32,868 bases of DNA from Eubacteriales bacterium (GTDB taxonomy: Bacteria > Bacillota > Clostridia > Christensenellales > MB2-83). Both the position numbers and the translations under genes were made by a program. A model generated the notes under the pieces. That model saw only the letters and a program-made list of their open reading frames with translations, had not been told where the DNA came from and made no database searches. Positions 5,467-24,205 of this stretch are shown here, piece after piece (position 1 is the stretch's first letter; each line of letters opens with the position of its first letter). The stretch covers positions 1-32,868 of the forward strand of contig JAHAZM010000014.1 in the NCBI GenBank assembly GCA_018385275.1, in the 5' to 3' direction.

Positions 5467-6939
5467 TTATTTGACAAAGCGCAGCATATCGTCCTTGTCA
5501 CACACGGCGGTATGACGCACGGGCAGGTCTTTCAGCTCGCGGATACGGGCCGGAACGGGCGTACCGGTCAGAGCCGACAGTCTCTCCCAGCGAGCGAACT
5601 CGTCGCCGGAGGGGATTTCTCCCAAAGCGGTCAAAACCGCGTCGGTGAACTTATACGCGCTGGCGGTCGAAACGATGACGGTGGGAGTCCGGTCGCCGGT
5701 ACGGGCGACGTAACGGTCGTATACGCTCTGCGCCACAGCCGTATGCGTGTCCATCAGATAACCGTAATCGGCAAACATCCGGCCGATGGCCTCCAGCGTC
5801 TGGCTTTCGTCGGCGTAATCAGCCTCCATCCAGTCGAGAGACAGGGCTTCGGGGCAAAGATAGGAGCCGCCGGCGGCCAGGCTCTTCATCTGTTCGGCGG
5901 TACGCGCCGCGTCGCGGTCGTTGAGTTCAAAAACGAGGCGCTCGAGATTGGAGCTGATCAGAATATCCATCGAGGGGGAAACCGTTTTATGGAACGGGCG
6001 GCGCGCGTCGTAGGAGCCGGTGCGGAAGAAATCCGTCAGGACGTTGTTGCAGTTGGAGGCGCAGATGAATTTCGCGACGGGCAGACCCATCCGGCGCGCG
6101 TAGATACCGGCCAGGATATTTCCGAAGTTGCCGGTGGGGACGACGAAATTGATCTTGTCCCCGCAGCGGATGCGGCCGGAGGCGACCAACTCGGCGTAGG
6201 CGTGAAAATAATAAACGATCTGCGGAACGAGCCGGCCCCAATTGATGGAATTGGCGCTTGAGAGCGAGACGCCCTGCGCGTTCAGGCGCGCGCACGCCTC
6301 CGCGTCGCGGAAGATCCGTTTGACGCCGGTCTGCGTGTCATCGAAATTGCCGCGGACCGCGACGACGTTGGTATTGGAGCCGCCGGTGGTGACCATCTGC
6401 AGCTTTTGCGCGCCGCTGACGCCGTCGAGCGGATAAAACACGGTGATACTGACGCCGTCGACGTCGCGGAAGCCCTCGAGAGCGGCTTTGCCCGTGTCAC
6501 CCGAGGTAGCGACCAGGATCGTGATCTTGTTGCGGAAACCCGTGACGCGGCGGGCTTTGGCCATCAAACGGGGCAGCAGCTGCAGCGCCATGTCTTTGAA
6601 AGCCAGCGTAGGCCCGTGCCAGAGTTCCATGACGTATTCGCCCTCCTCGCCGATGCAGGAGATCGGCACGACGGCGGGGTCGTCGAAGCGCGTGCCATAC
6701 GCGCCGTCGACCGCGTCGGCGACGTCCTCGGCGGTCAGATCGGTCAGGTACAGCGGCAGGATGGCTTTGGCTCTCTCGGCGTAGGTCTCCATGCGGCTCA
6801 ATTCTTCGATTTGGGTCAGCGACAGCGTCGGGAAAGACTGCGGGACGTACAGACCGCCGTCCGGCGCGAGCCCGCGCAGGATCGCTTCGGAGGACGTGAC
6901 TGTTTCGCGCGTCGCGGCGCGAGTGGAAAGATACTTCAT
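5467..6939 (-). CDS. thrC: Threonine synthase, 490 aa
   Basis: PLP-dependent conversion of O-phosphohomoserine to threonine and phosphate, the last step of threonine synthesis. The N-terminus (STRAA, LRGLAPDGGLYVP at 21-33) and the PLP-lysine motif HGPTLAFKDMALQ with Lys115 are typical of the long fungal/Gram-negative type of threonine synthase. LVATSGDTGKAALEGF binds the cofactor phosphate, and NSINWGR plus PTGNFGN are also present. At 490 residues it is full length. The ATG overlaps the stop of the upstream pfkB-type gene as ATGA (6936-6939), so translation is probably coupled. No thrB or hom gene is in the window. No T-box-like leader is seen before the operon. Confidence 0.95.
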   Translation of the reverse strand: MKYLSTRAATRETVTSSEAILRGLAPDGGLYVPQSFPTLSLTQIEELSRMETYAERAKAILPLYLTDLTAEDVADAVDGAYGTRFDDPAVVPISCIGEEGEYVMELWHGPTLAFKDMALQLLPRLMAKARRVTGFRNKITILVATSGDTGKAALEGFRDVDGVSITVFYPLDGVSGAQKLQMVTTGGSNTNVVAVRGNFDDTQTGVKRIFRDAEACARLNAQGVSLSSANSINWGRLVPQIVYYFHAYAELVASGRIRCGDKINFVVPTGNFGNILAGIYARRMGLPVAKFICASNCNNVLTDFFRTGSYDARRPFHKTVSPSMDILISSNLERLVFELNDRDAARTAEQMKSLAAGGSYLCPEALSLDWMEADYADESQTLEAIGRMFADYGYLMDTHTAVAQSVYDRYVARTGDRTPTVIVSTASAYKFTDAVLTALGEIPSGDEFARWERLSALTGTPVPARIRELKDLPVRHTAVCDKDDMLRFVK

Positions 6940-7889
6940 AATTCTATGATCTGCCTTTCTTCCAACTTACGGAGCAGGTTTTCATAATCGGAAAGCTGTA
7001 ACAATTCTGTGCCGCGCGCCAGACAGGACGCGCTGCCCGCGGCGACCGCGCGGCGCAGGATCCCGGACGGGCGTTCGCCCTCCAAATAAGCCAGCAGAGC
7101 CGAAACGGCCAGCGAGTCGCCCGCGCCCGTCGTCGTGATCGCCTCGATTTTCGGCGCGGGGCAAAAGTACGCGTTCGTCCGGTCGATATAATACGCGCCG
7201 CGGCTCCCGTCGGAAACAAGGACGGCGCCGGCGTTCAGATCCCGGGCGGCCTGTACGATCCCGGCCTGCGTCGGCAGAGAACGGCCCACGAGGCCCTCGA
7301 GCTCCGCGACGTTGGGTTTGATCAGATCGGGACGGACTTCCAGACCCCTGCGCAGCGCCTCGCCGTCGCAGTCGAGCAGCGCGGGGATCCCGTGCCGATG
7401 CGCCAGTGCGATCAGTTCGGCGTAAATATCCGGGGACAGACCCGGCGGGATGCTGCCAGAGAGACAAAGCGCCCGCGTCTGGCCGCAGAGCGCGTCGGCT
7501 TCCTTCATCAAGGCGGCGCGAGCTTCGGCGCTGACGGGGATCCCGGGCGAATTGATCTCGGTAAAGGCCGCGGGCTCGGCCGTCTCATACAGTTTGATGT
7601 TGGTGCGCACCTCGCCGGGACAAACGACCCAGCGCGGCGTCACATGCTCGCGGGCGAGCCTTTCGGCATAGATCCCGGCGTGGACCGAACCCATAAAACC
7701 TGTCAGAACGGAATCCGAGCCGGAAAGGCGCGCTGCGACGATGGCGGCATTGACGCCCTTGCCCGAATAATCGAAGCGCACGTCGCGGGCCCGCGTCAGT
7801 TTGCCGCGCTCCGCCCTGGGGACGCGCACGGTCATATCGATACAGGGATTGAGGCACACGGCCCCGATGGGGTATTGCTGAGCACTCAT
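6936..7889 (-). CDS. PfkB-family hexose-phosphate kinase (1-phosphofructokinase/tagatose-6-phosphate kinase type), 317 aa
   Basis: A ribokinase-fold sugar kinase. LNPCIDMTVRV (13-23) and SGKGVN (42-47) match the PfkB signature 1 region of FruK/LacC-type enzymes, with Ser where GGKGVN is usual. KPNVAELEGLVG (191-202) and the ATP/anion-hole signature TTTGAGDSL (252-260) with catalytic Asp258 are intact. It should phosphorylate a phosphorylated ketohexose; the exact substrate is unclear. The ATG at 7889 is chosen because the family N-terminus begins there and GAGG lies 11 nt upstream; the frame stays open further upstream but is not protein-like. It is linked by ATGA overlaps to a small membrane ORF upstream and to thrC downstream. 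Pairing with thrC is unusual (see findings). Confidence 0.88.
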   Translation of the reverse strand: MSAQQYPIGAVCLNPCIDMTVRVPRAERGKLTRARDVRFDYSGKGVNAAIVAARLSGSDSVLTGFMGSVHAGIYAERLAREHVTPRWVVCPGEVRTNIKLYETAEPAAFTEINSPGIPVSAEARAALMKEADALCGQTRALCLSGSIPPGLSPDIYAELIALAHRHGIPALLDCDGEALRRGLEVRPDLIKPNVAELEGLVGRSLPTQAGIVQAARDLNAGAVLVSDGSRGAYYIDRTNAYFCPAPKIEAITTTGAGDSLAVSALLAYLEGERPSGILRRAVAAGSASCLARGTELLQLSDYENLLRKLEERQIIEL

Positions 7890-8005
7890 TGTTTTTTCAA
7901 CCTCAGAACGATCAGCCAGATCGCCAGAACCAGCACCGCGATCCCGAGCATGATCCATTGATCCGTACTGACGACAGGGGCGCTTTCCAGCATGAAAAAA
8001 TGCAT
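7886..8005 (-). CDS. 39-aa single-pass membrane peptide, first gene of the pfkB-thrC operon
   Basis: A short ORF starting MHFFMLES. A hydrophobic helix runs from about residue 17 to 34 and the end is basic (RLKKQ), predicting an outside-N, inside-C single-pass peptide. Support for its being real: an excellent AAGGAGG six nt before the ATG at 8005, a consensus promoter just upstream, and a stop codon overlapping the pfkB ATG (ATGA, 7886-7889). I recognise no family. It may be a functional membrane peptide or chiefly a translational leader for the kinase gene. Confidence 0.65.
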   Translation of the reverse strand: MHFFMLESAPVVSTDQWIMLGIAVLVLAIWLIVLRLKKQ

Positions 8006-8033
8006 GAGGAGCCTCCTTCGTTTTGCTTCCCAT

Positions 8034-8062
8034 ATTATACTATACGACACAGTATCGCGCAA
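8034..8062 (-). promoter_or_regulatory. Promoter of the small ORF-pfkB-thrC operon
   Basis: Minus strand: TTGCGC (8057-8062), a 17-bp spacer and perfect TATAAT (8034-8039). Predicted start near 8027, just before the AAGGAGG of the 39-aa ORF. Confidence 0.75.
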
Positions 8063-8143
8063 ATCTTTTTTCACACCCCGGAGGGCCGCCGCGTATGATA
8101 AAGTACGGTGCTTTTTCTCCCGAGTACCCGGAAAAACGCAGGA

Positions 8144-8171
8144 ACGCAAGCCGGGCGTTTTTCATATAATA
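8144..8171 (+). promoter_or_regulatory. Possible promoter (sigma-K-like or weak sigma-A) before the Cys-containing protein gene
   Basis: TATAAT at 8165-8170 has no recognisable TTGnnn at the correct distance. The same bases fit the mother-cell sigma-K pattern CATAnnnTA (8163-8171) with AC 17 nt upstream (8144-8145). The information content is low, so the sigma assignment is only a suggestion that fits a possible spore-coat role. Confidence 0.35.
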
Positions 8172-8201
8172 TACCAGAAAAGCAAACAAGGAGGCATAAC
8201 C

Positions 8202-8861
8202 ATGTCGTTTTATTCATACCGCAACTGCGAAAACGAGCTTTGCCCCGGCCGGATCAACGGCGACGCGGGCAAGGGCTTGTGCGAGCGGGTCGCCGTACAG
8301 GTAAGAAGGATCTACGACTCCTGTATGCAGCAGGAGCAATTGGAGAATATCCCCGTTTCCCTGACCGGAGTCGTCGGGGATTTCACCGCGCCGCTGACCT
8401 ATCAGGGTATGCGCAGCAACTCGACCGCCGGCGTTCTGACCGATCTGTCCGTGACGCGTCTGCCGGACCGGCCGCACTGCTGCCGCGTCACAGCCACGGT
8501 CGCCATCCCGATCACGGTATCCTTCACGGACGCGAACAACCGGGCCGGATCCGGCGCGGCAACGATTTCCGTCAAAAAAGACGTCATTCTCTACGTACCG
8601 GACGACTCGATCATCCCCTACAGCATCGACAGCATCGTCAGCGCCGCCGGTATCAACGGCGCCTACGTCAGCAATTATTCCTTCATCATCGACGCCTGTG
8701 TCACCGTCATACTTAAAGTCGGCGCCGACGTGGATCTGCTGCTGCCCTGCTACGGGCTGTGCCGGATCCCGCCGTGCGAGGAATTCTCCAGCGAAGTCTG
8801 CGACGATTTCTTCAATCTGCCGATCTTCCCGGTGCAGACTTACGATACCGGCTCCTGCTGA
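8202..8861 (+). CDS. Cys-containing clostridial protein of unknown function, possible spore surface component, 219 aa
   Basis: No enzyme motif, signal peptide or membrane segment is visible. The protein has 12 Cys (9, 14, 27, 41, 93, 94, 166, 183, 187, 192, 200, 219), clustered near both ends; the middle is beta-rich and Val/Ile/Thr-rich (VTATVAIPITVSFTD, DVILYVPDDSIIPY). The N-terminal CENELCPGRINGDAGKGLC and the C-terminal LPCYGLCRIPPCEEF look like conserved blocks that I associate with uncharacterised clostridial proteins. Paired Cys and a beta-rich core suit a cross-linked coat or exosporium protein, but that is inference. The ATG at 8202 is fixed by AAGGAGGC at 8188-8195. It is monocistronic, followed 18 bp later by a terminator. 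Upstream in-frame codons are not part of it. Confidence 0.7.
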   Translation: MSFYSYRNCENELCPGRINGDAGKGLCERVAVQVRRIYDSCMQQEQLENIPVSLTGVVGDFTAPLTYQGMRSNSTAGVLTDLSVTRLPDRPHCCRVTATVAIPITVSFTDANNRAGSGAATISVKKDVILYVPDDSIIPYSIDSIVSAAGINGAYVSNYSFIIDACVTVILKVGADVDLLLPCYGLCRIPPCEEFSSEVCDDFFNLPIFPVQTYDTGSC

Positions 8862-8879
8862 AGCGGCGCGCCAAAAAAA

Positions 8880-8907
8880 CTCCTGTCTGACGACAGGAGC
8901 TTTTTTT
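8880..8907. terminator. Terminator between convergent genes
   Basis: 8-bp perfect stem (8880-8887 with 8892-8899), loop TGAC, then a run of seven T on the plus strand. A7 before the stem (8873-8879) gives a T-tract on the minus strand as well, so it can end the beta-helix gene too. Confidence 0.85.
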
Positions 8908-8924
8908 GAAAGAAACGCGGGATT

Positions 8925-10868
8925 TCAGCGCCGGGCGCCCGCCGCCGCACGGATGGCGGCGACAGCTTGCTCGTCCCATTGATAATTGTTGCGGAAGGAA
9001 CGATGGACGTCCTGCTCGTCGAGCGGTTCCCACATAAACAGATCGGGCTCGCGGGCCGTGTTGGCCGTCGTATAATTGTCCTCACAATAATTGTAATCGC
9101 CCTTGAGGATATAATTGCGCCAGCAGTCGGCCAGCACGTTGCCCGTGACGGTAAAACCGACGCTGCCGCCGTCGAGATAGACGCCGCCGTAATCGTTGTG
9201 CACGCCGGAGATGTCGTTGCCGGCGATCACGCTCGCGTCGTTGCGGCCCAGCGTATAGATCCCGCCGCCGTCGTGCAGTTCTTTCATCACGTCCGTGATG
9301 CGGTTATATGAAATCGAGTTTTCCGAAAAAAGGGAACGGCCGTTCTCGTCCGTATAATATGTGCCGGCCAGTTCCTGCCCTCCGAAACCCCAGCCCCAGC
9401 CGAAACTGATGCCCGAATACGGCATATCGGAGATGGTGTTGTATTCGACGCGCGTGCGCGCCGCGTAACCGACGACGATACCGACGCCGCCGCGATAGAC
9501 CGTCGCGCAGCGGGTGATGACGTTGTCCTCGATCCGGTTATCCGAGGAAACGTGCTTCATTTCCCCGCGGATCAGCGACGCGGGCAGCGATTTGGCGAAA
9601 GGATGATGATCAAAGAAGGAGAAACCGCCGAGCGTAACGGCGTTGCCGGCCACGTCCGTAAACGTATTGCCGGTGACGGCGGCGTTTTTAGTCGCGCGGC
9701 CCAGATGGAGGGCCCCGCCGCCGAGCTCGGTAAAGGTATTGTCCGTAAAGGAAACGCCGTCGGTATAGCATCCGTAGACCGCGTGGAGCGAATCGATCCA
9801 GAGGTCGTTGTTCCACACCGTATCGCCCGTCATGCCTTCGCCGCGATATACGTTGGCCTGAATGCAGATAAAGCCGGCGTTCGTGTGCGTCTGACGCCAT
9901 GTGGTATGGCGGAACGAAAGCGCGTCAAAGCGGAGCGCGCGGACCGGAGCGTCGGGCGTGCCGTTCAGGCAGACCAACTGCTCCAGTACGCCGAGCACGG
10001 CATGGAACGGGCCCGCCTGCCAGGGGCGCAGAACGATATCGCCGGAGGCGGCGTCCCGGCACCATTCGCCGGGTTCGTCAAGAAAACAGCGCGAGCCGCA
10101 GGCATATTGGATCTGATCGGCCCGAAGCGTGGCGCCGATGGAGAATTGCGTCGTGACGTAGGTCGTCCACGCCGGCTGACGCATCCGTACGAACACGACG
10201 CCGTCGGAGAGCGGTTCGATCGCGTCGACCGGGATATAAGAGTACGTCCAGTCGTTCTTGAGTGCGATCTCCACGTCGGACACATCTGTCACGGCAGCCA
10301 GCTCCGCGCTCCGCACCGTAAAGCCCGCATCGTCGACGGTCAGAGCTGTCAGGGGTTTGCTTTCAGCCAGAACGGCGCGGCGGCCGTCCACATACAGATC
10401 GCGGCTCCAGGGGCCGTCGAAACGCGAAGAAAAAGTGCCGTCGCCGTTGTCCGTCCAGTTTTCCAGAACCTGTCCGCCGCTGAGGACCGCCTGTTCTCCC
10501 GTCCAGATCACCGTGTGACCGTCGGTGCCGCCGTCGCGGGCGTCAAAGGTCAGCGTTTCGCTCAGAACATACGTACCCGGCAAAAGCGTAACGACGATAT
10601 CGCCGTCGGCTTCCCGGTTTGCGCGGACCGCCTGCCGGGCCCGTTCCGGTGTGCGGAAGGGCGTACTCCGGCTTCGGCCGTCGGCATCGTCGTCGCCGTC
10701 GGGCGAAACGTAAAAGCGCAGAGCGGCGGCGAATTTTTCCGAAGCAGGCTCCTCTGAAGGAGCCGGGGACGGCAGCGCCAGCCGCGCTTCGATATGAAGG
10801 ATGAGCGTGACGCAGCAAAGCACGAGCGCGCACATCCAGATGGCCACGATCCATTTACTCTTTTTCAT
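8925..10868 (-). CDS. Exported/anchored right-handed parallel beta-helix protein, 647 aa
   Basis: The N-terminus (KKSK, then a hydrophobic stretch 8-27) is an uncleaved anchor or signal; a Pro/Glu linker follows. FYVSPDGDDDADG (52-64) with TPFRTPERARQAVR is the usual opening of clostridial pectate-lyase-like beta-helix proteins. From about residue 300 onwards there are many NxF/NxI turns typical of beta-helix coils (SFTDNTFTELGGGALHLG, AAVTGNTFTDVAGNAV, NRIEDNVITR, NTISDMPYSGISFGWGWGFG). The family acts outside the cell on polysaccharides, as lyases or glycosidases; no substrate can be assigned and catalytic residues are not clear to me. ATG at 10868 with AGGAG 6 nt upstream and its own promoter. 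Monocistronic. Confidence 0.85.
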   Translation of the reverse strand: MKKSKWIVAIWMCALVLCCVTLILHIEARLALPSPAPSEEPASEKFAAALRFYVSPDGDDDADGRSRSTPFRTPERARQAVRANREADGDIVVTLLPGTYVLSETLTFDARDGGTDGHTVIWTGEQAVLSGGQVLENWTDNGDGTFSSRFDGPWSRDLYVDGRRAVLAESKPLTALTVDDAGFTVRSAELAAVTDVSDVEIALKNDWTYSYIPVDAIEPLSDGVVFVRMRQPAWTTYVTTQFSIGATLRADQIQYACGSRCFLDEPGEWCRDAASGDIVLRPWQAGPFHAVLGVLEQLVCLNGTPDAPVRALRFDALSFRHTTWRQTHTNAGFICIQANVYRGEGMTGDTVWNNDLWIDSLHAVYGCYTDGVSFTDNTFTELGGGALHLGRATKNAAVTGNTFTDVAGNAVTLGGFSFFDHHPFAKSLPASLIRGEMKHVSSDNRIEDNVITRCATVYRGGVGIVVGYAARTRVEYNTISDMPYSGISFGWGWGFGGQELAGTYYTDENGRSLFSENSISYNRITDVMKELHDGGGIYTLGRNDASVIAGNDISGVHNDYGGVYLDGGSVGFTVTGNVLADCWRNYILKGDYNYCEDNYTTANTAREPDLFMWEPLDEQDVHRSFRNNYQWDEQAVAAIRAAAGARR

Positions 10869-16801: not shown

Positions 16802-16813
16802 TGGACAAAAAGA

Positions 16814-17157
16814 ATGCGAGACACGCCTGTAAGCCGAGTTCTGTCGGGGATGACCATCTATCTACGCCTTTCGTTGCCGAAAGGCTCCAGCGATTACCCG
16901 AAAGCGTGACGGGCCGCCACATCTGCTTTCCTATCAATCTTGCATCAAGCGGGGTTTACATGGACGCGTCGGATCTCTCCGCCGCCGGTGAGCTCTTACC
17001 TCGCCTTTTCACCCTTACCCGTAAACGGGCGGTATATTTCTGTTGCACTTTCCTTGGAGTCGCCTCCACCGGGCGTTACCCGGCGCTCTGCCCTATGATG
17101 CTCGGACTTTCCTCGTCCGGTCTTGCGACCGTCCGCGGCCATCCAGCGTGCTCGCAT
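16814..17157 (-). ncRNA. rnpB: RNase P RNA, bacterial type A, about 344 nt
   Basis: The catalytic RNA that removes 5' leaders from pre-tRNAs. The universal P4 strands are visible on the minus strand: GAGGAAAGTCCGAGC (complement of 17100-17114) and ACAGAACTCGGCTTAC (complement of 16829-16844). The ends pair as helix P1: 17157-17146 with 16826-16814, twelve pairs with one bulged base, which fixes the boundaries. A TTGACA-17-TATGAT promoter places the start at about 17157 and a terminator follows the 3' end. Its location after the dnaG-sigA block is common in Clostridia. No ORF in this interval is credible. Confidence 0.95.
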
Positions 17158-23677: not shown

Positions 23678-23706
23678 TTGCTTTTTTTATTCCCTTATGA
23701 TAAGAT
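23678..23706 (+). promoter_or_regulatory. Probable promoter of the tRNA-Leu locus
   Basis: TTGCTT (23678-23683), a 17-bp spacer and TAAGAT (23701-23706). Predicted +1 near 23713, just before the first, broken tRNA copy, so the transcript would include the broken copy and then the intact tRNA. Confidence 0.5.
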
Positions 23707-23718
23707 AAACAGCGGTAT

Positions 23719-23846
23719 GCCGGTGTGATGGAATTGGCAGGTCTCGCCTGCGGACTCGGTCACGCGACGGCTCTGACAGTCCACCGGACTGTCATTCACT
23801 GCCGTCGCGCAGCTTCGCTTCGCTGCGCCGCGTGCTGGACTCAAAA
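23719..23846 (+). pseudogene. Broken tRNA-Leu copy interrupted by a hairpin-rich insertion
   Basis: Bases 23719-23740 are identical to the first 22 nt of the intact tRNA-Leu at 23875, covering the acceptor 5' strand and most of the D-arm. The next 90 bp (23741-23830) are foreign and made of consecutive hairpins: GCAGG/CCTGC at the start, element A in the middle, and CGCAGC/GCTGCG at the end. Then 23831-23846 match 16 nt of the intact gene through the anticodon (23898-23913), so only one tRNA base is missing at the junction. From 23847 to 23874 the sequence no longer matches: the 3' half of the anticodon stem, variable arm, T-arm and acceptor 3' strand are absent. It cannot make a normal tRNA. 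Confidence 0.75.
23763..23809 (-). repeat. Structured palindromic element, copy A (minus orientation)
   Basis: Outer stem of 9 bp (23763-23771 with 23801-23809) and inner stem of 8 bp (23775-23782 with 23786-23793) with a 3-nt loop. Read on the minus strand: outer arm, AGTGAAT, GACAGTCC, loop GGT, GGACTGTC, AGA, outer arm. It shares architecture and fixed bases with element B at 24021-24061. I know no name for this family. Confidence 0.7.
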
Positions 23847-23874
23847 CCAAGAGGCATATCAAAACGGAATATTC

Positions 23875-23961
23875 GCCGGTGTGATGGAATTGGCAGACGT
23901 GCTGGACTCAAAATCCAGTCCTGGCAACAGGGTGCGGGTTCGACCCCCGCCACCGGCACCA
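23875..23961 (+). tRNA. tRNA-Leu(CAA), class II, CCA encoded
   Basis: A complete 87-nt class II tRNA. The acceptor stem GCCGGTG (23875-23881) pairs with CACCGGC (23951-23957), then A and encoded CCA (23959-23961). The anticodon stem CTGGA/TCCAG encloses loop CTCAAAA, anticodon CAA (reads UUG). Long variable arm with CCTG/CAGG stem. T-arm GCGGG-TTCGACC-CCCGC is perfect. It is followed directly by a terminator and is the only intact tRNA gene in the window. Confidence 0.95.
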
Positions 23962-23998
23962 CGAAAAAAAGCAGGTCAACATGCCTGCTTTTTTCTCT
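23939..23998 (+). repeat. Direct repeat, copy 1: tRNA-Leu 3' end plus terminator
   Basis: 60 bp beginning in the T-loop and running through CCA and the terminator. It recurs at 24095-24154 with 2 mismatches (58/60). Confidence 0.9.
23965..23994 (+). terminator. Terminator of tRNA-Leu
   Basis: AAAAAAGCAGG (23965-23975) pairs with CCTGCTTTTTT (23984-23994), loop of 8; the T-tract is part of the stem. Confidence 0.85.
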
Positions 23999-24020
23999 GC
24001 TTAAAGGGGGGGCGAACAGA

Positions 24021-24061
24021 GGCGGAAATGAATGACGTGCCGGTGGCACGTCAGAACCGCC
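24021..24061 (+). repeat. Structured palindromic element, copy B (plus orientation)
   Basis: Outer stem GGCGG/CCGCC (24021-24025 with 24057-24061) and inner stem GACGTGCC/GGCACGTC (24034-24041 with 24045-24052), loop GGT. It shares with element A the TGAATGAC entry, the CCGGTGG apex and GTCAGA, while three successive inner base pairs differ and are all compensated. Further hairpins follow (24056-24062 with 24072-24078, and CACG/CGTG at 24080-24091). Confidence 0.7.
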
Positions 24062-24094
24062 GGCGACCAAACGGCGGTCACGCCGCCGTGCGAA

Positions 24095-24154
24095 TTCGAC
24101 CCCCGCCACCGGCACCACGAAAAAAAGCGGGTCAACAGGCCTGCTTTTTTCTCT
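24095..24154 (+). repeat. Direct repeat, copy 2: orphan tRNA-Leu 3' end plus terminator
   Basis: Duplicate of 23939-23998 with 2 mismatches, including CCA and a working-looking terminator (24121-24150, GCGGG/CCTGC with one G-U pair and six T). No tRNA 5' half precedes it: element B and other hairpins do. The T-stem 5' strand is GCGAA instead of GCGGG and would not pair, so this is a remnant. Confidence 0.85.
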
Positions 24155-24205
24155 ACTCAGAAGAATAATAAACCCGGGAAAAACCGCGCGGAAGCGTGTC
24201 CCTCG

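Follow-up and report, generated by a model that had tools for sequence, protein, structure and literature searches.

The segment upstream of the tRNA-Leu(CAA) gene in the analysed DNA is probably a non-functional tRNA relic carrying a repeat insertion, formed by an integration event and a later insertion of the repeat, and not an interrupted working gene. It occupies positions 23719-23874 of the window (the whole 32,868-nt stretch that was analysed) and contains, within a partial copy of tRNA-Leu, a 90-nt insertion termed E1, which belongs to a family of folded repeats (E) with members in other genomes. A second member, E2, is located on the other side of the intact gene. The locus is composed of the following elements:

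23719-23740, plus strand: bases 1-22 of the tRNA-Leu(CAA) 5' half, read as displaced; exact match to 23875-23896
23741-23830, minus strand: 90-nt insertion E1, with the family core at 23742-23808, then an extra hairpin; model R2, 83.0 bits, E-value 1.9e-17
23831-23846, plus strand: bases 24-39 of the same 5' half, which stops within the anticodon loop; exact match
23847-23874, strand not given: 28-nt spacer that separates the relic from the intact tRNA, from the sequence
23875-23961, plus strand: intact tRNA-Leu(CAA), from ARAGORN; Rfam tRNA, 51.7 bits
23965-23994, plus strand: terminator-like hairpin 3' of the intact tRNA-Leu, an inverted repeat with a T-run in the sequence
24005-24018, strand not given: short stretch rich in G, similar to an inverted T-arm but only weakly so in this copy (5-nt match), from sequence and flank comparison
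24019-24093, plus strand: second family member E2; model R2, 44.3 bits, E-value 1.8e-8
24095-24157, plus strand: copy of tRNA-Leu bases 65-87 and a second terminator copy; exact tRNA match at 24095-24117

The intact gene is the single tRNA-Leu(CAA) gene among the 38 tRNA genes listed for this genome. An earlier, sequence-only reading had described 22 nt of tRNA-Leu, a 90-nt insert and a further 16 nt, with one tRNA base lost at the joint, and the exact matches confirm this description: base 23 is absent, nt 23741-23830 separate the two matches, and the 22- and 16-nt matches are collinear. As had been stated, the upstream copy lacks a 3' half, and a match search of the window found no bases 40-87 after position 23846. 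Because of this absence and of the intact gene farther on, an interrupted gene in use is excluded and the label of an interrupted tRNA gene had to be given up. In 200 Markov-1 resamplings of the window, the longest match to tRNA-Leu(CAA) was 14 nt (mean 10.5); therefore, chance does not account for the matches of 22 and 23 nt, while one more match of 13 nt, at 6243-6255, is of the size expected by chance. Since the insert also belongs to a family found independently in other genomes, a chance origin of the relic similarity is very unlikely.

The 3' fragment at 24095-24117 with its terminator is additional to what had been observed before. It forms part of a stretch (24088-24157) that is 93% identical over 70 nt to 23932-24001. 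The hairpin at 23965-23994 failed a simple terminator scan, and the 28-nt spacer matched no element end. Relative to the intact gene, the 5' copy (from 23719) and the 3' copy (from 24095) are each shifted by exactly 156 nt, with different sequences filling the intervals. These equal distances and the close likeness of the two terminators would be expected if the tRNA-Leu region had been duplicated in tandem in 156-nt steps, the outer copies subsequently decaying and receiving repeats while no integrating element took part. Such an origin is rather unlikely, as the filling sequences are unrelated and equal offsets would thus need coincidentally equal lengths. Moreover, the 5' copy breaks off at the anticodon loop, as it does in four relatives with integrated elements, and the 3' copy begins at the T-loop behind E2, as observed at other tRNAs. 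The identical offsets of the two copies may be a coincidence.

Folding of nt 23719-23874 yielded -73.3 kcal/mol (z = -5.38; 0 of 200 shuffles equally good), in agreement with the earlier description of a strongly structured insert in the D-arm of a partial tRNA-Leu copy. The same reading had placed the insert downstream of the locus promoter. No promoter passed a consensus scan, and the claim rests on a weak match recognized by eye (TTGCTT at 23678-23683, 17 nt, TAAGAT at 23701-23706). The high stability of the predicted RNA and the position of E1 between this promoter-like site and the intact tRNA are what an interrupted leader RNA would call for, which would be transcribed and then removed from the intact tRNA by a nuclease such as RNase P. 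A leader of this kind is nevertheless quite improbable, given the outcome of the promoter scan. It is not needed to account for the relation to the tRNA 5' half and, though compatible with the relic interpretation, would add one extra claim.

The remaining tRNA sequence points to integration. According to the review PMC8371274, the anticodon loop and the T-loop are standard integration regions at which the tRNA is restored, and bacterial integration at the 5' half of a tRNA is rare. In four relatives (G060, G080, G010 and G098), displaced 5' halves of tRNA-Leu(CAA) were identified, each followed by an intact tRNA-Leu; the window copy breaks after base 39, and the breaks in all four relatives lie within two bases of this position. 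Beside the intact tRNA-Leu, G010 carries a tyrosine integrase and G080 a large serine recombinase; in G080, the matching tRNA-Leu 3' half, followed by an E, is found ~33 kb away. The recombinase-accompanied tRNA-Leu loci cover L408 1800-3900 and L412 1750-3450. Within the window's own genome, tRNA-Ser(CGA) (L410, 1-760) shows a displaced 5' fragment (bases 8-41) together with a tyrosine-integrase-like frame at the contig end. Because the relatives and tRNA-Ser(CGA) show a like arrangement, the 5' half in the window is read as an integration relic, most likely a half displaced by anticodon-loop integration and later struck by E1. It had been proposed that the locus is unlike phage integration; since the lone 5' half is best read as a displaced half, with the same breakpoint region in four relatives, integration at tRNA genes does have a bearing on the locus. 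The window itself exhibits the break in the loop and the adjacent intact tRNA. No adjacent integrase was seen in a by-eye reading of the neighboring frames, and neither an element body nor an anticodon-side 3' half remains in the window, so an element once present at this tRNA-Leu would have been lost since.

The following course of events is proposed as a model. A mobile element would have entered the anticodon loop of tRNA-Leu(CAA), bringing its own complete tRNA-Leu. The displaced 5' half would be what remained of the original gene, its first 39 bases, and the body of the element would have disappeared later. E1, which now lies antisense between bases 22 and 24 of the dead half, would then have been inserted there. 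E2 lies on the 3' side of the intact tRNA, ahead of the copy of the tRNA 3' end and terminator, which is the usual habitat of the family. Observations that run against this model are the absence of an element body, integrase and anticodon-side 3' half from the window, the lack of a match between the spacer and any element end, the odd placement of E1, and the equal 156-nt offset, which tandem duplication would also predict.

The insert is not unique: family members were found in other genomes. Members share a fold of two stems with a conserved AGTGAAT / AGAG internal loop, which is present in E1 and E2. Two models were used: R1 was built from 11 sequences, of which five came from the window's genome and six from other genomes, where they lie dispersed or close to tRNAs or tmRNA; the 22 sequences used for R2 originate from viral contigs or other genomes, with none from the window's genome. 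The R1 alignment shows covariation. For R2, 83 cells were changed on both sides, compared to 21.3 in shuffles (0 of 500 as high), while one of five covariation measures, the number of further pair types, was not above the shuffles (154 of 500 as high). The fold of the E family is backed by covariation. E1 and E2 are the two R2 matches in the window. E2 sits 3' of the intact tRNA, and a 26-nt copy of the 3' end of that tRNA comes after it; E1 is atypical, as it lies antisense in the D-arm of a 5' half and is without the T-arm copies that mark the usual sites of the family.

Elsewhere in the window's genome (80 contigs, 87% complete), E-like hairpins were found behind tRNA-Ala(GGC), where two stand in tandem, tRNA-Ala(CGC) and tRNA-Tyr. 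The tRNA-Ala and tRNA-Tyr copies were detected by R1 or blastn and are missed by R2. Near-identical dispersed copies of E1 were not found in this genome. Five weak blastn matches to E1 were rejected, as they are without tRNAs and the three of them that were read lie in coding-like DNA; an 11-mer of the E core has one other occurrence, in unrelated sequence. An Rfam gathering search of the window matched tRNA and RNase P alone and returned no family for the 90-nt insert; the RNase P hit is a bacterial class A RNA at 16813-17154 on the minus strand (295.8 bits). No paper describing such a family was found in searches of an open-access library. Judging from this one Rfam search and the literature searches of open-access papers, the E family appears to be undescribed. 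Phage and plasmid records did not match the window stretch or one dispersed E member, and one tRNA-Trp unit matched only phage tRNA genes (best 10 of 109 records). The window's genome is the only one of its family among those compared, and the best named matches of the neighboring dgt-like protein are Clostridia with at most 62% identity. Among named genomes, E was absent from 80 loci near dgt and no near sister was found.

A search of the order with R1, scoring at most 13 candidates per genome, matched 23 of 396 genomes. For a census of habitats, 92 of 96 matches were entered (two were the window again, one lay at a contig end and one was weak, with 30.7 bits), and removal of one exact duplicate left 91 distinct members, drawn from the window's genome and the order search; the sample is not independent, as several rows represent sister species. 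A tRNA or tmRNA gene on the same strand was found upstream of 68 of the 91 members in the fetched stretch, at a distance of less than 100 nt in 47 cases (median 63 nt), of 100-400 nt in 19 and farther in two. To the right of E, a direct copy of the 3' end of the respective gene extends over at least 10 nt in 62 of the 68 cases and at least 12 nt in 57; to the left, the same 3' end is found inverted over at least 8 nt in 54 and at least 11 nt in 41. Shuffled controls gave a mean of 5.0 with maxima of 11 and 10. Twenty kinds of tRNA/tmRNA host E, and copies at tRNA-Cys start at the acceptor stem instead of the T-arm. E2 fits this usual habitat of an upstream same-strand tRNA or tmRNA and a 3'-end copy behind; E1, antisense in a 5' half, does not. 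The remaining 23 members have no tRNA or tmRNA in reach: judged by eye, some lie at contig ends or carry T-arm-like flanks, and about seven (in G122) are dispersed.

In the wider class, R2 matched nine of 341 genomes including that of the window, and the other eight genomes contain 14 matches, four with a tRNA upstream and four that were not re-found by a simple pattern. Viral contigs contributed 10 members in seven of 42 loci, one being a tmRNA array beside phage-like genes and the rest dispersed (two are the same stretch). Fragments of tRNA genes also occur near their own source, as five of the 38 tRNA genes in the window's genome have a fragment of themselves nearby. At tRNA-Ser(GCT) (L082, 1597-1880), a 14-nt 3'-side piece lies 265 nt downstream after hairpins and may be a chance match. 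In G063, a second copy of the promoter region and of the first 26 bases of tRNA-Leu(UAA) (L042, 1-460) lies upstream of this gene, with unrelated hairpins after it, and a short 3' fragment lies downstream of the gene. The hairpins at both genes were rejected as E members, as the E model did not match them.

Behind tRNA and tmRNA genes, E units stand in arrays whose order differs between sister species. Typical units are about 135-220 nt long and gene-less. The tmRNA array of G080 comprises units A, B and a longer C, that of G060 unit B, then A; between the two, unit A is identical at 128 of 128 positions, unit B at 144/150, the distal flank at 161/170 and the tmRNA end at 119/120. The two orders could also derive from an A-B-A ancestor through loss and recombination; therefore, they show exchange of modules and leave excision unproven. 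Genes occur within two units. The tmRNA and E of G366 are 2.65 kb apart, with a MerR-type regulator and a membrane-like protein (DUF6560/DUF6585) encoded in between, and in G222, two E copies at the tmRNA enclose 0.94 kb encoding a DUF6442 protein and an HTH_3 protein; these gene-bearing units are located at L319 (oriented 6620-9691) and L332 (oriented 1-1035). Units behave like exchangeable modules. We tentatively consider a cassette system, a possibility below even chances, in which tRNA/tmRNA genes would serve as a fixed platform and units consisting of a host gene 3' end, a terminator, optional genes and the folded recombination site E would integrate into the T-loop while regenerating the tRNA, and would stack in arrays and reorder through a putative recombinase. 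The window would then contain one unit (E2) and a stray site (E1) in a tRNA relic. The data allow this mobile-cassette reading, which is unproven.

Searches for an enzyme did not identify one that mobilizes E, among integron integrase and HUH transposase. No integron integrase (TIGR02249) exceeded the curated cut-off in 25 genomes, which included 20 of the 23 member-bearing genomes of the order search, and E was absent from the 19 recombinase-like loci found in the integrase search. No recombinase was found in the small E units. These negative results are consistent with E repeats being passive palindromes of the REP/MITE type, which would tolerate tRNA flanks; the direct and inverted tRNA copies would then stem from slippage during replication and from template switching at hairpins instead of recombination of units. 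Members in intergenic DNA away from tRNAs, in G122 and in six of the seven member-bearing viral-contig loci, and a GNNG tetranucleotide seen by eye before the E hairpin, which we take to resemble REP, also fit this possible, if doubtful, explanation. However, the HUH (Y1) transposase PF01797 does not track the family, being present in 8 of 20 genomes with E members and 7 of 20 without and not found in the window's genome (87% complete), and gene-bearing units and the changed order at tmRNA are unexpected from slippage alone. If units are passive, E still accounts for many tRNA fragments that resemble broken or intron-bearing tRNA genes. If they are mobile, essential tRNA and tmRNA genes would be entry points for small gene modules across a whole bacterial class, by means of a folded site without a name in Rfam (window search).

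Among known systems, tRNA introns share with the window the position of an insert within tRNA sequence. A tRNA intron was rejected, as bases 40-87 are absent after 23846, the intact gene is separate and the insert lies in the D-arm. REP/BIME and MITE repeats are, like E, short, hairpin-forming, dispersed and non-coding, whereas E strongly prefers the 3' sides of tRNA/tmRNA genes with gene-specific flanks, and HUH transposase does not follow its distribution. Integron cassettes resemble E units in the structured palindromic site (attC) at the unit end, the tandem units behind a fixed site, the varying order and the presence of genes in some units, but differ in that E units each carry a tRNA/tmRNA 3' end and no integron integrase passed the cut-off in the 25 genomes. 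The boxes of attC sites read RYYYAAC...GTTRRRY; the ends of E, compared by eye with this consensus, read TCGAAC...(G/A)TTCGA, do not correspond to it and are set by the tRNA T-loop. Finally, elements that use tRNA sites through tyrosine recombinases have, according to PMC8371274, T-loop or anticodon-loop sites and a restored tRNA, and the 3' fragment pattern fits them. In contrast to these elements, typical E units are small and gene-less, and their folded core is common to many different tRNAs.
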